This document shows, one piece after another, positions 784-19,708 of a stretch of 64,000 bases of DNA. Position 1 is the first letter of the stretch; each line of letters starts with the position of its first letter. The notes beneath the pieces were generated by a model. It worked only from the letters and a program-made list of their open reading frames with translations. It did not search any database and was not told where the DNA came from. Source of the DNA: a virus; IMG/VR virus record IMGVR_UViG_3300035670_000179, positions 1-64,000 of that record; one strand, written 5' to 3'. A program made the translations under genes and the position numbers.

Positions 784-836
784 ATTATAAGGCATCTGAT
801 GCCCCTGTGGAGGGGGTCTTGTGCCAGTTATTCAGG
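784..836 (-). promoter_or_regulatory. Sigma70-type promoter cassette, copy A
   Basis: On the minus strand TCCACA (806-811) and TATAAT (784-789) are 16 bases apart. Just upstream lies the conserved block AACTGGCACAAGAC (about 816-830), shared with the sites near 2101, 3947, 9802 and 11320. It sits directly after the stop of the 828-1073 gene and drives the 760 gene. The perfect short palindrome GGCAT-CAG-ATGCC falls in the spacer. Confidence 0.7.
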
Positions 837-1073
837 TGGTTTTGTTTGTTCCACATATCCAATACATAATCCATTTATTACACCACCACATTCAGTAATA
901 TACAAATGGTCGTATAATTTAAGTCCAAGTAGTTCTACTAGTTTTTGTTTTAGGTCGTCAAAATCATCAAACTCAAAACCACTTTTTAATTCATCTCTAA
1001 GATATTCTCCATTTTCATCATATATTGGATATCTATTACAACCAATATCTCTTGGTCTAAAAAAGTTAGTCAT
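828..1073 (-). CDS. Hypothetical protein
   Basis: An 81-aa acidic protein beginning MTNFFRPRDIG. Its start forms ATGA with the upstream 48-aa gene, so the two are translationally coupled. It is the last gene of its unit: its stop is followed at once by promoter copy A. No family recognised. Confidence 0.65.
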   Translation of the reverse strand: MTNFFRPRDIGCNRYPIYDENGEYLRDELKSGFEFDDFDDLKQKLVELLGLKLYDHLYITECGGVINGLCIGYVEQTKPPE

Positions 1074-1216
1074 TCTTCATCCTCATTATAAAACTCATCC
1101 CAATCAGGATGAGGCATACCCGCAACGACCATTTCACCACATTCAGGGCAGTGGAACATACCGATGGGAGCATCCTTATAAATGTCTGCTGTTGGGTCAA
1201 AAGAACATTTAGTCAT
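1070..1216 (-). CDS. Small zinc-ribbon-like protein
   Basis: A 48-aa frame beginning MTKCSFDPTA. It carries FHCPECGEM, a CxxC knuckle with typical zinc-ribbon surroundings, and a second potential ligand in MPHPDW. Both ends overlap neighbouring genes as ATGA. Function unknown. Confidence 0.65.
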   Translation of the reverse strand: MTKCSFDPTADIYKDAPIGMFHCPECGEMVVAGMPHPDWDEFYNEDEE

Positions 1217-1365
1217 TTCTGTGCCTCCACAGCAGCATCTTGAATAATCCGTGAAAGTTCCATCAGTTCTTGTTTCATTTCTGGTGTGGAAGTTTTAGCA
1301 ACCTCATCATAAAACACCGTGAGTGCTGTGGTCAAAAGAATAAGTTGTCGATAGGTTAGGTTCAT
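1213..1365 (-). CDS. Small hypothetical protein
   Basis: A 50-aa frame beginning MNLTYRQLIL, predicted mainly helical. It is joined to both neighbours by overlapping stop/start codons (TGA at 1213-1215; ATG at 1365 inside the next gene's end). No domain recognised. Confidence 0.6.
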   Translation of the reverse strand: MNLTYRQLILLTTALTVFYDEVAKTSTPEMKQELMELSRIIQDAAVEAQK

Positions 1366-1463
1366 TTGTTTAGAGTAGTAATAATAGTATCAAGTTTTTG
1401 AGAAATCACCACACACTGAATAGCAATCAAAGAAACCATTATGATGATGTAGGGTTTTATCAT
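1362..1463 (-). CDS. Very small predicted membrane protein
   Basis: A 33-aa frame beginning MIKPYIIIMV with one hydrophobic segment (residues 4-20). It overlaps the upstream stop at 1460-1462 and the downstream start at 1365 as ATGA, so it fills exactly the gap between two coupled genes. That tight packing is the main evidence that it is translated. Confidence 0.5.
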   Translation of the reverse strand: MIKPYIIIMVSLIAIQCVVISQKLDTIITTLNK

Positions 1464-1906
1464 TTTACCTTCTCAATTTTAGCAAGTGGTTCGGTTCCAA
1501 ACTTCATAGGAGTATCAAATGAAACTCCAAGCATTCTGCTCCAATCTCTTGGAGAATTAAGGTCTTCTACCCATCCTTTTTCAATCGCATCCTCCCAAGA
1601 AAGATGATACCTTGTGGTAGTGTATAAGTCCCAAGCAATATCGTGATACTTATGAACTTTAGAACTACCCACACCGAAACTACTACTCCACCCATCAATA
1701 CCATCTTCAAGAATTTCAGGCATTCTCTTGGTGAGTTCATCCTGAATTTCGTGATAGACATTCCAATTCACATCTTTCTTAAGAGGCAGATGTTCAAATG
1801 CCTCACGAATTTGTCCACCTTGAATGCGGGAAAGCAATTCACAGGCAGTAGAGATTACCTTAAGTTGTTCTTCGGTTACTTGGAGATTGTAGGTTTTAGA
1901 AGTCAT
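1460..1906 (-). CDS. Conserved phage hypothetical protein
   Basis: A 148-aa protein. The N-terminal part (LQVTEEQLKVISTACELLSRI, residues about 7-28) resembles a helical segment I recall from many phage hypothetical proteins. The rest has aromatic residues (DIAWDLY, SWEDAI) and no catalytic motif I can name. It overlaps the upstream 60-aa gene by 11 bases. Confidence 0.7.
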   Translation of the reverse strand: MTSKTYNLQVTEEQLKVISTACELLSRIQGGQIREAFEHLPLKKDVNWNVYHEIQDELTKRMPEILEDGIDGWSSSFGVGSSKVHKYHDIAWDLYTTTRYHLSWEDAIEKGWVEDLNSPRDWSRMLGVSFDTPMKFGTEPLAKIEKVK

Positions 1907-2078
1907 TTTCGGAGTCGAATGTGAAGTATTGATAGATGGAAGACATTACTGCTTCCTCAATATATTCGATAATAGCACCCTCACTTGGGTTCTCAATATG
2001 CTTATATGCCCGTGAATATCCACGACGGACACCTTCTTCAATTGCCTGTTCTAGGATTACCTGAATTTTAGGTCTCAT
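1896..2078 (-). CDS. Hypothetical protein
   Basis: A 60-aa helical protein beginning MRPKIQVILE. It is the first gene of a unit that starts at promoter copy E (2101-2129) and runs left through seven overlapping small genes. Function unknown. Confidence 0.65.
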   Translation of the reverse strand: MRPKIQVILEQAIEEGVRRGYSRAYKHIENPSEGAIIEYIEEAVMSSIYQYFTFDSENDF

Positions 2079-2100
2079 AATGCTTGAAATTCATAAGGTC

Positions 2101-2155
2101 ATTATAGAGCAAAAACTCCCCCTTGTGAAGGGAGAGTGTGCGGTTTCTTAAGTGT
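2101..2155 (-). promoter_or_regulatory. Sigma70-type promoter cassette, copy E
   Basis: Minus strand: TTCACA (2124-2129), exactly 17 bases, TATAAT (2101-2106). Upstream is a diverged form of the conserved block (ACACTTAAGAAACCGCACA), with the same distance to the -10 as in copies A and B. The -35 lies partly in the loop of a terminator hairpin (2116-2136). Confidence 0.7.
2111..2136 (-). terminator. Intrinsic terminator overlapping promoter copy E
   Basis: Minus strand: CTCTCCCTT-CAC-AAGGGGGAG followed by TTTTT. The stem is 9 base pairs with one G-T wobble and a 3-base loop (2116-2136), and the U-run is at 2111-2115. It lies 12 bases past the stop of the 2148 gene and would end that transcript. 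Confidence 0.7.
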
Positions 2156-2360
2156 CCCAAGGAGCCTTGCGGTTTAGAAGTTTCCTCAACTTCTCTACTT
2201 GTTCTGGGTCTGGTGGTTCATTTATTCGTCGCACAAGTTCATCATATGCCTCTTTGGAAACATACATCGTTTGCGGTTTCATTCCAAGATGTTTGATACA
2301 CTTGCGTTCGTATTGATATTCTTTCCACCTATACCAGATGGATAATAGAAAGTTTTTCAT
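2148..2360 (-). CDS. Small protein with DUF1778-like tail
   Basis: I place the start at 2360 (MKNFLLSIWY), where the ATG overlaps the upstream TGA as ATGA, giving 70 aa. The second half (YVSKEAYDELV, then PPDPEQ, then LLNRKAPWD) resembles the C-terminal end of DUF1778-type antitoxins, with PP.P..L..LL....PW spacing. No toxin partner is visible beside it. Function unknown; the antitoxin likeness is pattern memory only. Confidence 0.65.
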   Translation of the reverse strand: MKNFLLSIWYRWKEYQYERKCIKHLGMKPQTMYVSKEAYDELVRRINEPPDPEQVEKLRKLLNRKAPWDT

Positions 2361-2446
2361 TCTTCTGGTGGGGTAAGTAAAATCCATAACCATACAAACA
2401 TCGTTATGAATACAATAAGTTCTACAATAACTGGAGGTATATTCAT
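2357..2446 (-). CDS. Very small predicted membrane protein
   Basis: A 29-aa frame beginning MNIPPVIVEL with one hydrophobic span covering most of it and a charged PPEE end. Its TGA overlaps the next start as ATGA. Short, so only moderate confidence. Confidence 0.5.
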   Translation of the reverse strand: MNIPPVIVELIVFITMFVWLWILLTPPEE

Positions 2447-2449
2447 TCT

Positions 2450-2713
2450 TTATTCCCCTTTATAGTATGATAAGTTCATAGGGCACCGATAGTTTAGAAA
2501 ATCTATATCCAAACTAATTGAAGAAATGTGAAAATTAAGTGAGAAAACACTACCATTAAAGATACTAATACCAAATCTAATGTTAGGCTCCCAATCCCAA
2601 TATGAACTTGAGTAAAACATAACTTCAAATAAGTTGAGTTTTCTGAATTGTCCTATGATAAGGTATGCGTCTCTTCCGTAGTCCCATTCTGTATAAAAAT
2701 CAAAGAGTTTCAT
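2450..2713 (-). CDS. Hypothetical protein
   Basis: Start placed at 2713 (MKLFDFYTEW), overlapping the TGA of the upstream gene as ATGA; 87 aa. It is rich in aromatic residues and looks all-beta. No domain recognised. Confidence 0.6.
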   Translation of the reverse strand: MKLFDFYTEWDYGRDAYLIIGQFRKLNLFEVMFYSSSYWDWEPNIRFGISIFNGSVFSLNFHISSISLDIDFLNYRCPMNLSYYKGE

Positions 2714-2964
2714 TTTTGAATTACCGAATGACGTTGTGAAGGACAATCAAGGAAGAACTTATATTCCCGATAATTTCCATTACCGTTCCATTTTACAACA
2801 TTACAGTTTCCATATTTATCCACCACTTGAAACCTGTTCTCAAGTTCTTGTTCTTTTGGTTCAACAGTAATCGCAGTATTGATGAGAGTTAATACTGTCG
2901 CACTTGTAAAACCAAGAATAAACCCAAGTAGAATAAACCGATAATAAGTGAGTTTCTGTTCCAT
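2710..2964 (-). CDS. Predicted single-pass membrane protein
   Basis: An 84-aa protein with one transmembrane helix at about residues 9-33 (FILLGFILGF...) followed by a soluble tail with two cysteines. Its ATG overlaps the TAA of the upstream gene. Possibly an inner-membrane early protein; function unknown. Confidence 0.65.
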   Translation of the reverse strand: MEQKLTYYRFILLGFILGFTSATVLTLINTAITVEPKEQELENRFQVVDKYGNCNVVKWNGNGNYREYKFFLDCPSQRHSVIQK

Positions 2965-3122
2965 TAGGTCGTTTGCTCCTTTCTTTGAGTGTTAATGTAT
3001 TCCCCAAGTTTAGTCAAAATCTCCCTACAGTTCGTTTGAACGTATTGGTCTTGGATTTGGCTTTCCTTGTATCTTAGCACAGATTGAAAGACAATCTCTG
3101 CTTCTTGTTTAGTGAAGTTCAT
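2964..3122 (-). CDS. Small hypothetical protein
   Basis: A 52-aa helical frame beginning MNFTKQEAEI. It shares TAATG overlaps at both ends, with the metallophosphoesterase upstream and the membrane protein downstream. No domain recognised. Confidence 0.6.
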   Translation of the reverse strand: MNFTKQEAEIVFQSVLRYKESQIQDQYVQTNCREILTKLGEYINTQRKEQTT

Positions 3123-3922
3123 TAGATTTCAATTTCAAAGTTTGGGTTGAATTCAAGGTTCAGGTCTGCGTTGTTGTATCCATTATAATACCCTCTGGGA
3201 TTACAGATAACCCTACACTCACCGATTTGGTAATCAAACGATGTGTGAGTGTGTCCGTGCGACCAGTATTTGATTTGAGGATGATTGAAGATAAAGTCAT
3301 CAAGGTCACTTACATAAGCACCATTCGCAATACCACTTGTGCGATACTTTGGATGGACCGATTGATACGATGGTGCGTGATGTGTAAGAACCCAAACCTT
3401 ATCGTTCTGGAACAACTCAAGGTTCTCCTGTAGATACTTCTTGGTATTCTGGTGAAAGGCATAAGTATCATCAGGGTTCATCTTGCGATACTTTGGAGTG
3501 ATACGAATGGTCTTGTAATCATTCAGACACTGTGCTGCCTCCATCATTTCCAGAGCATTTCCATTACGAAAGTCAGTCCAGAGTGTTCCCCCTATGAAAA
3601 TCCAATCATCAATTTTAACGAAATCGTTTTCAAATATGTGAATACCTTTGGGTAGATGTTCTTTGAGAACATCCCAAGTGCCTTCGTAGTTGTATCCGTA
3701 TGCTTCGTGATTTCCTGCGATATACAAGACATAATCAAAGTTATCGGAACACTTTTGCAAGAAATCATCATATACTTGATGAAGTTTTCCATTGGTCTTA
3801 AAATGACGAGCACAGAGAATGTCCCCACCCAGAATGAGAACATCCCCTTCTCCCAAGTCAGGAACTCCGTGCCCCTGTTCGCAACACTCAAGGTGTAGGT
3901 CTGATACTACTTTGACTTTCAT
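3122..3922 (-). CDS. Calcineurin-like metallophosphoesterase
   Basis: A 266-aa protein with the full metallophosphoesterase motif series: SDLHLE (residues 7-12), GGDIL (about 32-36), GNHEAYG (about 70-76), LTHHAP (about 180-185) and SHGHTH (about 222-227). These residues bind two metal ions and hydrolyse phosphomonoester or phosphodiester bonds. The substrate cannot be told; phage relatives are often proposed to act on nucleic acid or nucleotide phosphates. It is the first gene after promoter copy B and is followed by coupled small genes. Confidence 0.88.
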   Translation of the reverse strand: MKVKVVSDLHLECCEQGHGVPDLGEGDVLILGGDILCARHFKTNGKLHQVYDDFLQKCSDNFDYVLYIAGNHEAYGYNYEGTWDVLKEHLPKGIHIFENDFVKIDDWIFIGGTLWTDFRNGNALEMMEAAQCLNDYKTIRITPKYRKMNPDDTYAFHQNTKKYLQENLELFQNDKVWVLTHHAPSYQSVHPKYRTSGIANGAYVSDLDDFIFNHPQIKYWSHGHTHTSFDYQIGECRVICNPRGYYNGYNNADLNLEFNPNFEIEI

Positions 3923-3946
3923 TTCTCACTTGGGTCCTTTAAAGAC

Positions 3947-4001
3947 ATTATACAGGGAGTTCTCTGAGGTGTGAAGGGGTCTTGTGCCAGTTTGTCAAGT
4001 G
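3947..4001 (-). promoter_or_regulatory. Sigma70-type promoter cassette, copy B
   Basis: Minus strand: TTCACA (3970-3975), 17-base spacer, TATAAT (3947-3952). The conserved upstream block ACTTGACAAACTGGCACAAG follows the stop of the oxygenase gene at 4003. Serves the metallophosphoesterase unit. Confidence 0.75.
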
Positions 4002-4002
4002 G

Positions 4003-4698
4003 TTATTTTCCACCATGAATTCTCATGATTTCATTTTTTAAATTATTAGCAACAAACAAAGGGTCTCTTAGTGCTGATTCAAAAGTTTTTTTATGAATTG
4101 GTGAATAATTTTCCTCAATCAATTCAGTAAGTAAATCAATTTGATAGAGTAAATTTCTCACTTCTGGATTTTTTATTACACTTTTAGTCCAAAAAACAGA
4201 TACATATCTGGTTCCACGAATAACTTCATTTACCCTATGAAGTATTCCAGTTTGATAAGTTATAGCCCAACCTGCATCTAATTTAATTTTTTTCTCACCA
4301 TCATTCCCCAAGTATAAGCAAAGTTCCCCACCAACATAATCATCTGGAGAATTTAGAAAAACTGTGGTACTATAGTCTCCATTTTTCCAATTATCCATAT
4401 GTGGGTGATAATAATTTCCAGATGACGTTTTTGATACAATAACTCTGTCCGTACTATCTGCTACAGTATAAGATAAAAATTTCTTATCTTCATCTAAAGA
4501 TTTCATTATGATGTCATTAATTTGTTTAGATATTTTATCTTCAGATAGTTCAGTATTCTTTTTGACAGAATGACTTCCACCACCCGTTTTTATTCCATCA
4601 TACCAGTAGTTATTTTCATTTGAAATATGAATTAACTCATTAACTCTTGATAATTCAGAATCGCTGAGAAGTTTTCTTATATAATAATTTGTAATCAT
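4003..4698 (-). CDS. 2OG-Fe(II) oxygenase, PKHD/PiuC-like
   Basis: Start set at 4698 (MITNYYIRKL), overlapping the TGA of the upstream oxygenase gene; 231 aa. The double-stranded beta-helix iron ligands are visible as H100-x-D102 in YYHPHMDNW and a distal H154 in GILHRV, and R164 in RGTRYVSVFW is placed to bind 2-oxoglutarate. The GGELCLY strand and overall length match PKHD-type hydroxylases. Such enzymes hydroxylate protein or small-molecule substrates with O2 and 2-oxoglutarate; the substrate here is unknown. Confidence 0.85.
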   Translation of the reverse strand: MITNYYIRKLLSDSELSRVNELIHISNENNYWYDGIKTGGGSHSVKKNTELSEDKISKQINDIIMKSLDEDKKFLSYTVADSTDRVIVSKTSSGNYYHPHMDNWKNGDYSTTVFLNSPDDYVGGELCLYLGNDGEKKIKLDAGWAITYQTGILHRVNEVIRGTRYVSVFWTKSVIKNPEVRNLLYQIDLLTELIEENYSPIHKKTFESALRDPLFVANNLKNEIMRIHGGK

Positions 4699-5876
4699 AC
4701 TAACCAACTAATAATAGAATATCTTGTTCCCTTTGTTACTGGAACTATTTCGTGAGGATACATAAAGTTTGATGGGAACAAGATAGCAGAACCTTTTTTA
4801 CACTTGTACTGAATTTTTCTACCAAAAAAGGAAAATTCCCCACCTTCATAATCATCATTCAACTGCAAAGAACAAGATAAAGACCTTTGCTCTTTATCGT
4901 AAGAGTCTGTGTGTTCTGTATAAAAATCTCCAACATCATAGCGTAAAAAGTTATATCCAGTATCAATAGAAATTTTAAAGTTACTAAAGATATTTGAATA
5001 CTTTCTTACTGATTTTGAAACACAATCAAAAACTATAGCGTCAAGTTCTTTTCTTTTGTTATAATTTTTTTTGATGATGTTATCTGAAGATATATTTAAA
5101 TTCTTACAATTTCTTATTTTACTATTTAAAGGATTATTAATATCCGCAATTGTAGCGGGAAGTAAATCTTCACAATTAGAATATTCCGCTATAAGTTCAT
5201 CACAAACATCTTCTGGAACAATATTATCAAAGGTAACAATATAATCCTCTAACTTACTATCGGGATTTGAAATGAACTTATTTGTATCTACAATAACTTT
5301 ATTTTTTTCTATTGGATACTTAAGGTCTGTAGTTTCTCTCTCTTTTGTTTTATCAAAATATGCATAAGAGCAATCCCCACGACTTCTTACATAATGTAGA
5401 AACACTTGCCCATACTTTTCTCCTTCATATTCTTCTCTCCAGTGCTCGGCAATTTTGCCAAGATATAACATAGCATCGCCTGGTTTAAGAATAACAGATT
5501 TTTCTTCACCACTTGGATTTTTTATAAAAATGGGCCAAGGTTTGTCCCCATTTAAATGAAGAGTTAATGATACCTCACAAGCATCACGGTCTGTATGCCT
5601 CTCTAAGACATTTCCTTTATAATAAATTCTTGAATAGACATAAGTTGGCAGTAAACTCTCTTCAACTATAGAAGAAACTTCTTGTGTCTTTTGGCAAAGA
5701 ATCTCTACAAAGGGTAGAAAATTGGGAACTGATTTTGATACTGGAACCTGTGGGTCCCCATCAACCTCAGAATTTTCACAGTAAAACAAAAATTGATCAT
5801 ACAACTCCAAAGATTTATCTTTATCAATAAAGTTTGGAATTATCAAATAATTATTTTGGACTAATAACTTATTCAT
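4695..5876 (-). CDS. Tandem two-domain 2OG-Fe(II) oxygenase
   Basis: A 393-aa protein with two oxygenase domains. The first (about 1-175) has H94-x-D96 (ERHTDRD) and a distal H145 (AEHWREE). The second (about 210-393) is prolyl-4-hydroxylase-like, with H322-x-D324 (YTEHTDSY), H375 (YPHEIVPV) and R385 (GTRYSIISW). Both triads look intact, although the first domain's 2OG-binding basic residue is less clear. It is coupled to the next oxygenase gene and sits behind an extended -10 promoter. Targets unknown. Confidence 0.85.
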   Translation of the reverse strand: MNKLLVQNNYLIIPNFIDKDKSLELYDQFLFYCENSEVDGDPQVPVSKSVPNFLPFVEILCQKTQEVSSIVEESLLPTYVYSRIYYKGNVLERHTDRDACEVSLTLHLNGDKPWPIFIKNPSGEEKSVILKPGDAMLYLGKIAEHWREEYEGEKYGQVFLHYVRSRGDCSYAYFDKTKERETTDLKYPIEKNKVIVDTNKFISNPDSKLEDYIVTFDNIVPEDVCDELIAEYSNCEDLLPATIADINNPLNSKIRNCKNLNISSDNIIKKNYNKRKELDAIVFDCVSKSVRKYSNIFSNFKISIDTGYNFLRYDVGDFYTEHTDSYDKEQRSLSCSLQLNDDYEGGEFSFFGRKIQYKCKKGSAILFPSNFMYPHEIVPVTKGTRYSIISWLV

Positions 5877-7498: not shown

Positions 7499-8065
7499 TT
7501 AAACCTCAATAAATTGAATTGAAAATATAAATCTAAATTCATCTGCTTCTATTGATATTGGAGTTGCTTTATGTAAAATCGAACTATCAAATATTACAAC
7601 TCTGCCAGAAATGTAATCGACTATTATCTCAGATTCTCCCGAATCATTTGAAAAAACAGTTTCTCCACCCCAATTAGTATTCCATCTATTATTTACATAA
7701 TACAGTAAAGTTTTACCATTTGCATTTGGACTTAAACAATCCACATGATAGTATTGTGTTGAAAAAGGACTTGATGCTATAGACCAACAACTTCTTACAT
7801 TAAACTTTTCACTTGAAACATGTTGTTCAATAGGAATAAAAGAGTTTGAATTTAAAAAACCAAATTCATTTATATCACTTTCTGTAAAATTTGATTTAAA
7901 AAAAGTTTTATTTCTTTGCCAAAGTTCAGTATTACTTGTAGACCCTAATGTATGAGGTTTATTTTGAATATAATATTCAAAATAACTTTTTTCTGATGAA
8001 GTAAAAACATCATCGAATATTTCTATAGATTTATTGGATGACGTTTTTATTACTCTATGTCTCAT
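7499..8065 (-). CDS. 2OG-Fe(II) oxygenase
   Basis: A 188-aa protein with iron ligands H107-x-D109 (YYHVDCLSP), distal H165 (ILHKATPI) and R178 (EFRFIFSIQF) for 2-oxoglutarate, in the order of a jelly-roll dioxygenase; the GGETVFSN strand lies between them. It is the fourth such domain within 4 kb. Its stop is 6 bases before the next gene and its start overlaps the upstream gene. The substrate is unknown; it could act on protein side chains or small molecules. Confidence 0.82.
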   Translation of the reverse strand: MRHRVIKTSSNKSIEIFDDVFTSSEKSYFEYYIQNKPHTLGSTSNTELWQRNKTFFKSNFTESDINEFGFLNSNSFIPIEQHVSSEKFNVRSCWSIASSPFSTQYYHVDCLSPNANGKTLLYYVNNRWNTNWGGETVFSNDSGESEIIVDYISGRVVIFDSSILHKATPISIEADEFRFIFSIQFIEV

Positions 8066-9801: not shown

Positions 9802-9859
9802 ATTATAGGGTAAGTTGAGAGTTTTGAGAAGAGTGTTGTGCCAGTTTGTCAAGTGTCAC
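9802..9859 (-). promoter_or_regulatory. Sigma70-type promoter cassette, copy C
   Basis: Minus strand: TTCTCA (9825-9830), 17 bases, TATAAT (9802-9807). The conserved block GACACTTGACAAACTGGCAC with following ACAA lies at about 9836-9858. The -35 is weaker than in copies B and E. Confidence 0.7.
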
Positions 9860-9964
9860 ATCAGACAGATGACGATGATACCGAAATGAATGATTAATCC
9901 ATTCAATTTGTTAAAAACCGATTTCATAAGGATTTTGTGGGGAGCAGAGGGCAATAGGGCGTTC

Positions 9965-10039: not shown

Positions 10040-11287
10040 ACGACGGATGGTGCTCACCGCAACGTCCCCCTGCTCAAAGATAATGTCAACAACGTTCTGG
10101 ATTTTCTTGGCAGCAGAAGCAGTTGACTTGGAAAACACAGGAACAATCACCAGACCGAAAGATTTGGTGTATTGCTCCAGTTGACCAGGAACAATGCTGC
10201 CGTTGCGAATACCAGCAGCATCATCAGGGTGAAGACGCAGAGTGCGACCCACAGTCTGACCGATACCGACAATATCCATATCCCGCATAAACACAACTGC
10301 CTCAAGAGCAGAAATGTTGATGCCTTCTGCCAGAATGCTGTGGTGAAGAACAATAAATTTCTTCTGAGGGTCACGACCCCAAGCATTCAGAGTGTCGAAG
10401 AACACTTCACGGTTCACTTTCTGACCGTCAATAAAACCACCGTGCTTCGCAGTAATGTGCATCACAGAGTAACCCTGTTCCGCAACAACCTGAGCAAAGT
10501 CAGTTTGAGACAGCAGACCAATAATGTGCTTGGTTGCCTTCGCACAAATCAGAACCTTATTGACGGGATTTTCTTCCAGAACTTCCAGCAGATTGTCACG
10601 GTCACGTTGGGCAATATCATCACCCTTCTTGACCATTTCAAGTTGCTTCGCAACCACCTTAGGGGGAATGATGTAACCACCCTGAACCAGTTCGGGAGCA
10701 GGAACCTTAGCAATGATTTGACCATAAACGTCAGTATCATTCATACCAGGCTTACCAACAGTCACCGAATACTTGGGAGTAGCAGTGAAGAAGTAGCAAC
10801 GTTGTGCCTCCTGACTGAAATACTCCACAGCAGGGAAGAAATGACGTTGAACACTGTTATGTGCCTCATCGAAGTAGATGGTATCCACATCGACTTCTGC
10901 CTCTTGTAGACGGTTCAGGGAGTTGTAGGTGGTGAAGATGAGTTTGTGACCTTGAGTATTGCGAACCCAAGTGTAAATCTCATTCAGTTTGGTAGAAGAG
11001 AAGTGGTGCGTTTCACCACTATGAACGTGCATCACAGCAGCGTTCGTCACAAACTCCAGATACTCAGCAGAGAGTTGTTCCGCAAGCAGAATGCGGGGAG
11101 CAACCACTACAACAGTCTTAGGAGTTTCGGATTGGAAGACACGGAGGGCATCGAAGATACCAACGTTAGTCTTACCACCGCCAGTAGGAAAGACACAAAT
11201 GCCTTTGCTATACTTGGCGAGAGCGTCAAGTGCTTTCTGCTGGTGGGGACGGAGTTGAATCACGGGTTTCATTTCGTATGAATACAT
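10037..11287 (-). CDS. SF2 DEAH-box helicase (Res/UvsW-like)
   Basis: Start chosen at 11287 (MYSYEMKPVI), five bases after AAGGGGG; 416 aa. Superfamily 2 motifs are in order: Q-like LRPHQQKAL, Walker A PTGGGKT (34-40), DEAH (140-143), FTATP (167-171) and GQTVGRTLR (motif VI, about 350-358). It should use ATP to move on or remodel DNA. It resembles type III Res-type helicases and, more distantly, T4 UvsW, which unwinds recombination intermediates; I do not assign the symbol. No nuclease domain is fused. G+C is clearly above its neighbours. Confidence 0.85.
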   Translation of the reverse strand: MYSYEMKPVIQLRPHQQKALDALAKYSKGICVFPTGGGKTNVGIFDALRVFQSETPKTVVVVAPRILLAEQLSAEYLEFVTNAAVMHVHSGETHHFSSTKLNEIYTWVRNTQGHKLIFTTYNSLNRLQEAEVDVDTIYFDEAHNSVQRHFFPAVEYFSQEAQRCYFFTATPKYSVTVGKPGMNDTDVYGQIIAKVPAPELVQGGYIIPPKVVAKQLEMVKKGDDIAQRDRDNLLEVLEENPVNKVLICAKATKHIIGLLSQTDFAQVVAEQGYSVMHITAKHGGFIDGQKVNREVFFDTLNAWGRDPQKKFIVLHHSILAEGINISALEAVVFMRDMDIVGIGQTVGRTLRLHPDDAAGIRNGSIVPGQLEQYTKSFGLVIVPVFSKSTASAAKKIQNVVDIIFEQGDVAVSTIRR

Positions 11288-11292
11288 AATAA

Positions 11293-11319
11293 CCCCCTTA
11301 CGGGGAAACCGCAAGGGGG
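11293..11319 (-). promoter_or_regulatory. Hairpin pairing with the helicase ribosome binding site
   Basis: CCCCCTT (11293-11299 on the plus strand) pairs with AAGGGGG (11313-11319), with an inner CGG/CCG stem and a GGAAA loop. In the mRNA the AAGGGGG in front of the helicase ATG would be sequestered. Confidence 0.55.
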
Positions 11320-11343
11320 CTTGTGACAGTTATCAAAGTGTCC
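11320..11343 (-). promoter_or_regulatory. Upstream block of promoter cassette, copy D
   Basis: GACACTTTGATAACTGTCAC with following AAG, a close relative of the block in copies A-C. At the usual distance only TATTAT (11286-11291) is found, and it overlaps the helicase ATG, so promoter activity here is doubtful. Confidence 0.45.
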
Positions 11344-11393
11344 TTAGAGTATTTTAGAAGTAACTAGTTCTTATCTTCAACGGAGACAAACCT

Positions 11394-19633: not shown

Positions 19634-19708
19634 TGCTGGTGGAGGGATTTGAACCCACACTGTACCGATTTTGAGTCGGTTGCCTCCTGCCAATTGCGCT
19701 ACACCAGC
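19634..19708 (-). tRNA. Atypical tRNA, anticodon CAA (Leu?)
   Basis: A 75-base minus-strand tRNA-like gene. The acceptor GCTGGTG/CACCAGC pairs perfectly over 7 bp, the anticodon stem ACCGA/TCGGT over 5 bp, and the loop CTCAAAA gives anticodon CAA (Leu, UUG codon). The T-loop TTCAAAT is present, with one T-T mismatch in its stem. Oddities: the D-arm pairs poorly, and the variable loop is only 5 bases, unlike the long arm of normal tRNA-Leu. CCA is not encoded. It may be degenerate or of altered identity. Confidence 0.75.

Follow-up and report, generated by a model that had tools for sequence, protein, structure and literature searches.

A palindromic operator at cyanophage early promoters, shared with host yfr2 promoters and probably bound by the host activator PlmA

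Five minus-strand junctions in the window, the 64,000-nucleotide stretch of viral DNA analysed here, share one common layout (copies A to E), in which a 24-bp palindrome, TGTGNCANTTN4AANTGNCACA (20-bp core TGNCANTTN4AANTGNCA), is predicted from its sequence to be an operator centred near -54 of a sigma70-type promoter. The case for an operator is strong. With a probability of roughly 0.7, it is the operator for the host GntR activator PlmA (PMM1637), which would switch on the phage early promoters; comparison of phage and host promoters makes PlmA a well-supported candidate for the binding protein, and the regulator probably activates rather than represses.

The window belongs to the 66.5-kb IMG/VR record IMGVR_UViG_3300035670_000179, a virus whose distant kin are the Kyanoviridae and S-SKS1. 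Its baseplate hub shows 33-42% identity to the best matches, homologues of gp32, gp59 and gp53 are present, and megablast with the first 12 kb of the window returns no relative; the host is probably a cyanobacterium. All four scored copies (A, C, D and E) belong to the leftmost 12 kb, a region with small ORFs and a helicase, and the structural genes to the right of this region contain none of the four. Three neighbouring genes at 4003-5876 and 7499-8065 match 2OG-Fe(II) oxygenase-type PHROG families, some of which carry the labels ferrochelatase or endonuclease V, and a single tRNA gene at 19634-19708 on the minus strand is the sole Rfam match of the window.

When at most 3 mismatches are allowed, ACTTGACAAACTGGCACAAG has just three matches in the 64 kb, at 818-837, 3981-4000 and 9835-9854 on the minus strand (copies A, C and D), with 0.00 expected in shuffles, while copy E, AACTGTCACAAG at 11320, contains the core with one mismatch. 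The block positions proposed in an earlier sequence-only reading are thus correct, with E and B as recognisable variants of the three matched copies. The block is real and its CTTG...CAAG ends are symmetric, but this symmetry is only partial, because the true unit is the 24-bp palindrome, which extends further upstream and has a different centre. Similarly, what had been listed as a fifth block at 11320-11343 is present as a complete copy, with 32 bases between the 20-bp palindrome core and its TATTAT (Table 1).

Table 1. Operators and predicted promoter elements of copies A to E in the window
Feature	Positions	Strand	Sequence	Details
Copy A operator, left half degenerate	820..843	-	AAAACCACCTGAATAACTGGCACA	PWM 12.9 bits, fourth-best in the window; -10 at offset 32
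Copy A predicted core promoter	784..811	-		-35-like TCCACA 806-811, 16-bp spacer, -10 TATAAT 784-789
Copy B degenerate operator	2138..2156	-	GACACTTAAGAAACCGCAC	Assigned by sequence; under PWM threshold
Copy B putative terminator/promoter composite	2101..2137	-		Hairpin and T run 2115-2137; -10 TATAAT 2101-2106
Copy C operator	3983..4006	-	ATAACCACTTGACAAACTGGCACA	PWM 15.6 bits
Copy C predicted core promoter	3947..3975	-		-35-like TTCACA 3970-3975, 17-bp spacer, TATAAT 3947-3952
Copy D operator, best in the window	9837..9860	-	TGTGACACTTGACAAACTGGCACA	PWM 33.5 bits; 20-bp palindrome matched exactly
Copy D predicted core promoter	9802..9830	-		-35-like TTCTCA 9825-9830, 17-bp spacer, TATAAT 9802-9807
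Copy E operator	11322..11345	-	AAGGACACTTTGATAACTGTCACA	PWM 22.3 bits; palindrome with one mismatch
Copy E putative terminator/promoter composite	11286..11321	-		13-bp-stem hairpin 11291-11321; -10 TATTAT 11286-11291

Each copy is followed downstream by an ORF: 479-760 for copy A, 1896-2078 for copy B, a metallophosphoesterase ORF (3122-3922) for copy C, a short ORF with its ATG at about 9771 for copy D, and a UvsW-like helicase ORF with its ATG at about 11272 for copy E. The -35 elements are poor at these promoters, and the operators of A and B are imperfect. Specifically, copy B retains an intact left half (GACACTT), a right half damaged by about one base, and the hairpin and TATAAT in place, with its -35-like TTCACA (2124-2129) sitting within the hairpin. 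A CATA-like motif a few bases past the -10 box at 784, 9802 and 11286, also seen in S-SRM01 and Mic1, may represent a conserved initially transcribed sequence.

The palindrome was scored with a PWM of 24 positions built from other phages (71 distinct sites, window excluded; consensus TGTGCCAGTTTATAAACTGGCACA), a set that is not blind to spacing because its seed sites, with at most 1 mismatch, were picked with a -10 box nearby. Copies D, E, C and A are the only above-threshold hits in the 64 kb, and a -10 box follows each of them after 31-32 bases; the next best site reaches 7.8 bits, and no score in the shuffled window exceeds 12 bits. The block does not occur at random in the genome. Across 127 sites, the offset of TATAAT after the palindrome likewise peaks at 31-32 bases. 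Among other IMG/VR stretches, the exact 19-mer of the block occurs in 11, and AACTGGCACAAGNNCNCTTNA is found in at least 119 stretches, against an estimated 25 or so by chance. The left arm TG(A/C)CACTTGA, which is absent from that query, is conserved in 83 distinct sites, as is the -10 box.

Other assignments of the element were considered. None of the four 24-mers (A, C, D, E) contains the NtcA box GTA-N8-TAC, and a sigma54 site (TGGCAC-N-TTGC) was rejected because its spacing is wrong and sigma54 is not known from cyanobacteria. A host regulon defined by the exact 18-mer was also rejected, since its 14 matches in bacterial genomes look coding, several of them apparently in tsaD.

Short-query BLAST matches in annotated phages come in the overwhelming majority from cyanophages. 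The Microcystis siphophage Mic1 carries 47 near-or-exact palindrome sites, 40 of them exact; S-SSM7, S-SRM01, S-PM2, P-RSM1 and P-SSM2 have 3-5 exact and 4-9 near copies, and S-CRM01 has 18 near copies, while T4, HTVC008M and Ma-LMM01 remain at background level, all counted irrespective of a -10 box. When a -10 box is required, the cyanophage genomes of this comparison other than Ma-LMM01 (T4-like phages and Mic1) retain 4-22 sites each, Mic1 having 21, compared with 0-2 per shuffled genome and zero in T4, Pelagibacter phage HTVC008M and Ma-LMM01. The element was not found in the cyanopodoviruses P-SSP7 and Syn5 or in P-SS2 and S-TIM5, and one Nodularia and one Aphanizomenon siphophage each give a single one-mismatch match. 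Syn9 initially appeared negative, an impression overturned by weaker palindrome variants at 44.8-53.0 kb. The sites cluster in small-ORF regions. A BLAST search for a phage-encoded regulator common to Mic1 and the Kyanoviridae revealed none.

The 47 near or exact sites of Mic1 are confined to 56.8-72.1 kb. In published RNA-seq, the genes from gp49 to gp73 are classed as early except for gp61 and gp67; expression of gp49 and gp69-73 is highest at 0.5 h, and the immediate-early genes have dropped to their minimum by 4 h (PMC11237433). The sites thus fall entirely inside the published early block gp49-gp73, a correlation with the published class, and are densest around immediate-early gp69-73, often 56-64 bases apart. 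Arrays with these 56-64-base steps extend over 65.9-72.1 kb (MN013189), an arrangement that suggests multi-operator promoters. By extension, the genes behind the copies in the window virus are probably early. The earlier proposal, in which an activator or repressor from phage or host binds the block and controls the early genes jointly, is accordingly supported by the comparative data, namely the symmetry, the rigid -10 spacing, the position at cyanophage gene starts and the Mic1 early block.

The same palindromic element, as judged by the PWM and its constant position, is common to phage promoters and host yfr2 promoters. Among 292 genomes of the cyanobacterial phylum the exact palindrome is rare, occurring in 67 genomes, usually once or twice, and five recurrent host sites lie directly upstream of the Cyano-1 RNA (RF01701), which we take to be the Yfr2 family. 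With the phage PWM, 20 of 30 further Cyano-1 upstream regions score above the 99th percentile of 663 control windows, and all 20 sites are positioned 37-43 nt from the RNA 5' end; the remaining 10 yfr2 promoters lack the element by the phage matrix, and in the smallest picocyanobacterial genomes (1.6-1.7 Mb) a good score, 8.0 bits, is reached by only a half of the yfr2 element. Several recurrent host sites, these five among them, have a -10 box about 33-34 bases downstream, and the element-to--10 spacing is alike in both groups (31-32 bases in phages; 33-34 nt in a subset of host sequences read by eye). Elsewhere in these genomes, a near-identical palindrome, GTGTCAGTTAAGAAAGTGTCAC, followed by a -10 box and a conserved TGCAAGGAGTGATACC, adjoins a pentapeptide-repeat gene or a Lin0512-like gene (loci L284-L297; G035, G053, G056, G077, G079, G108 and others), with no Rfam match where searched, and is possibly another sRNA promoter. 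A different self-complementary repeat, TGGCAATTCATGAATTGCCAC, occurs in a few cyanobacterial genomes (G198, G110, G287, G241), and a family search around G064 gave genomes without Yfr2, probably non-photosynthetic relatives.

The closest known system is the yfr2 element CGRE1 (Lambrecht 2018, described in PMC6778093): the palindrome has the same place in front of yfr2 (Cyano-1) genes across cyanobacteria, with the -10 box about 32-34 bases downstream. CGRE1 is probably this palindrome, judging by location and similarity. The phage sites differ from CGRE1 in fronting protein-coding genes, in occurring in many copies per genome and in often being nearer to a perfect dyad than the host sites. According to PMC6778093, PMM1637 is a GntR regulator present in all cyanobacteria that binds CGRE1-containing yfr2 promoters and mediates Yfr2 induction; reviews ascribe Yfr2 regulation to PlmA (PMC6243067, PMC7344720), which is universal in and exclusive to cyanobacteria and, in Synechococcus elongatus, is encoded by an essential gene (PMC5083789). 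Additionally, PlmA is close to the YtrA subfamily, in whose sites the conserved GT and AC stand well away from the centre of the palindrome (PMC4494728), as they do in the phage element. A GntR Pfam search found no member in 12 phage records, the window virus included, and one in each of two cyanobacterial genomes. A point against the PlmA assignment is that TGNCA-type half-sites can be common to unrelated regulator families.

Copies B and E carry intrinsic-terminator-like hairpins between operator and -10 box; A, C and D do not. More widely, among 113 isolate sites 17 have a hairpin with a T run in this interval, and among 318 metagenomic sites 38 do, compared with 0.7 and 1.2, respectively, in shuffles. 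In each of the eight phages compared, the element lies upstream of a UvsW-like helicase, in several cases together with a hairpin; it scores 13-23 bits in five of them and 7-8 bits in three (S-SRM01, P-SSM2, P-SSM4). At B and E, as at the UvsW promoters of a number of relatives, the space between operator and -10 box contains a compact putative intrinsic terminator, so that a single cassette would both close the preceding transcription unit and open the following one.

In the proposed mechanism, a PlmA dimer would bind the 24-bp palindrome upstream of the -35 region and recruit host RNA polymerase to the phage early promoters, allowing the early genes to be transcribed ahead of any phage protein. 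A host activator is favoured because yfr2 genes have the same element and spacing and the tested phages lack GntR proteins. PlmA binding is itself deduced from yfr2, and phage DNA-binding proteins could escape both BLAST and the GntR model, which leaves a minor share of the probability to activation through the operator by another host factor, or by a virion-delivered or unrecognised phage factor; against this stand the occurrence of the element in two unrelated phage lineages with no detectable shared regulator and its presence at the same spacing in host yfr2 promoters. A repressor of host or phage origin that closes the early promoters later in infection is less likely still: it would suit the course of the Mic1 immediate-early genes, from their 0.5 h peak to the minimum by 4 h, and many phage operators are indeed repressor-bound, but the site, being upstream of the -35 region, leaves the core promoter free, the same host element fronts an sRNA whose induction the regulator mediates, and neither BLAST nor the GntR search found a shared phage regulator.

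The composite copies also resemble PeSLs, the promoter/stem-loop cassettes of T4-type phages (Arbiol 2010 and Comeau 2014, cited in PMC4503421), which like B and E combine a terminator with an early promoter repeated at unit junctions in variable regions. It is improbable, however, that the copies are mainly terminator/promoter recombination cassettes of this kind, with the block as an incidental conserved sequence. The hairpins of B and E and of the isolate and metagenomic sites, together with the clustering in small-ORF regions, fit such a cassette, but the window cassettes have the extra 24-bp operator, a hairpin or stem-loop is missing from the majority of sites, A, C and D among them, and palindrome and spacing are kept across unrelated phages and hosts. 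Chance likeness or a generic RNA-polymerase preference acting without a dedicated regulator can be given almost no weight; poor -35 elements might call for generic upstream contacts, but a 24-bp dyad at fixed spacing, with zero or near-zero counts in shuffles and control phages, largely contradicts it already.

T4 middle promoters likewise have an activator site upstream of the -10 box, the MotA box, which stands in place of the -35 element. The present operator is arranged differently, ending about 31-32 bases before the -10 box and upstream of the -35 region. Doron et al. 2016 reportedly described a conserved 'novel regulatory element' that serves the early genes of T4-like cyanophages, and the phage element may already be known from that work: both concern early genes of these phages, and Syn9 has weaker versions of the palindrome. 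The accessible literature contains no report of the PlmA link, the Mic1 element or the terminator composite.

Cyanomyoviruses lack motA and asiA, and because of this absence a 2010 review considered the mechanism of their early and middle transcription unclear (PMC2984593). If the PlmA reading is true, a host activator site common with yfr2 would account for early transcription in the absence of phage factors and couple the onset of infection to the nitrogen and redox state of the host. We lean slightly towards the broader view that the unrelated T4-like myoviruses and siphophage Mic1 independently placed their early genes under PlmA through an operator of the yfr2 type with unchanged spacing. 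The beginning of infection would then be coupled to nitrogen and redox signals of the host by way of PII-PipX-PlmA. The palindrome could serve as a simple early-gene marker for uncultured cyanophages, and its distribution suggests that many cyanophages may rely on an activator of the host, most probably the GntR protein PlmA, to turn on their early genes.
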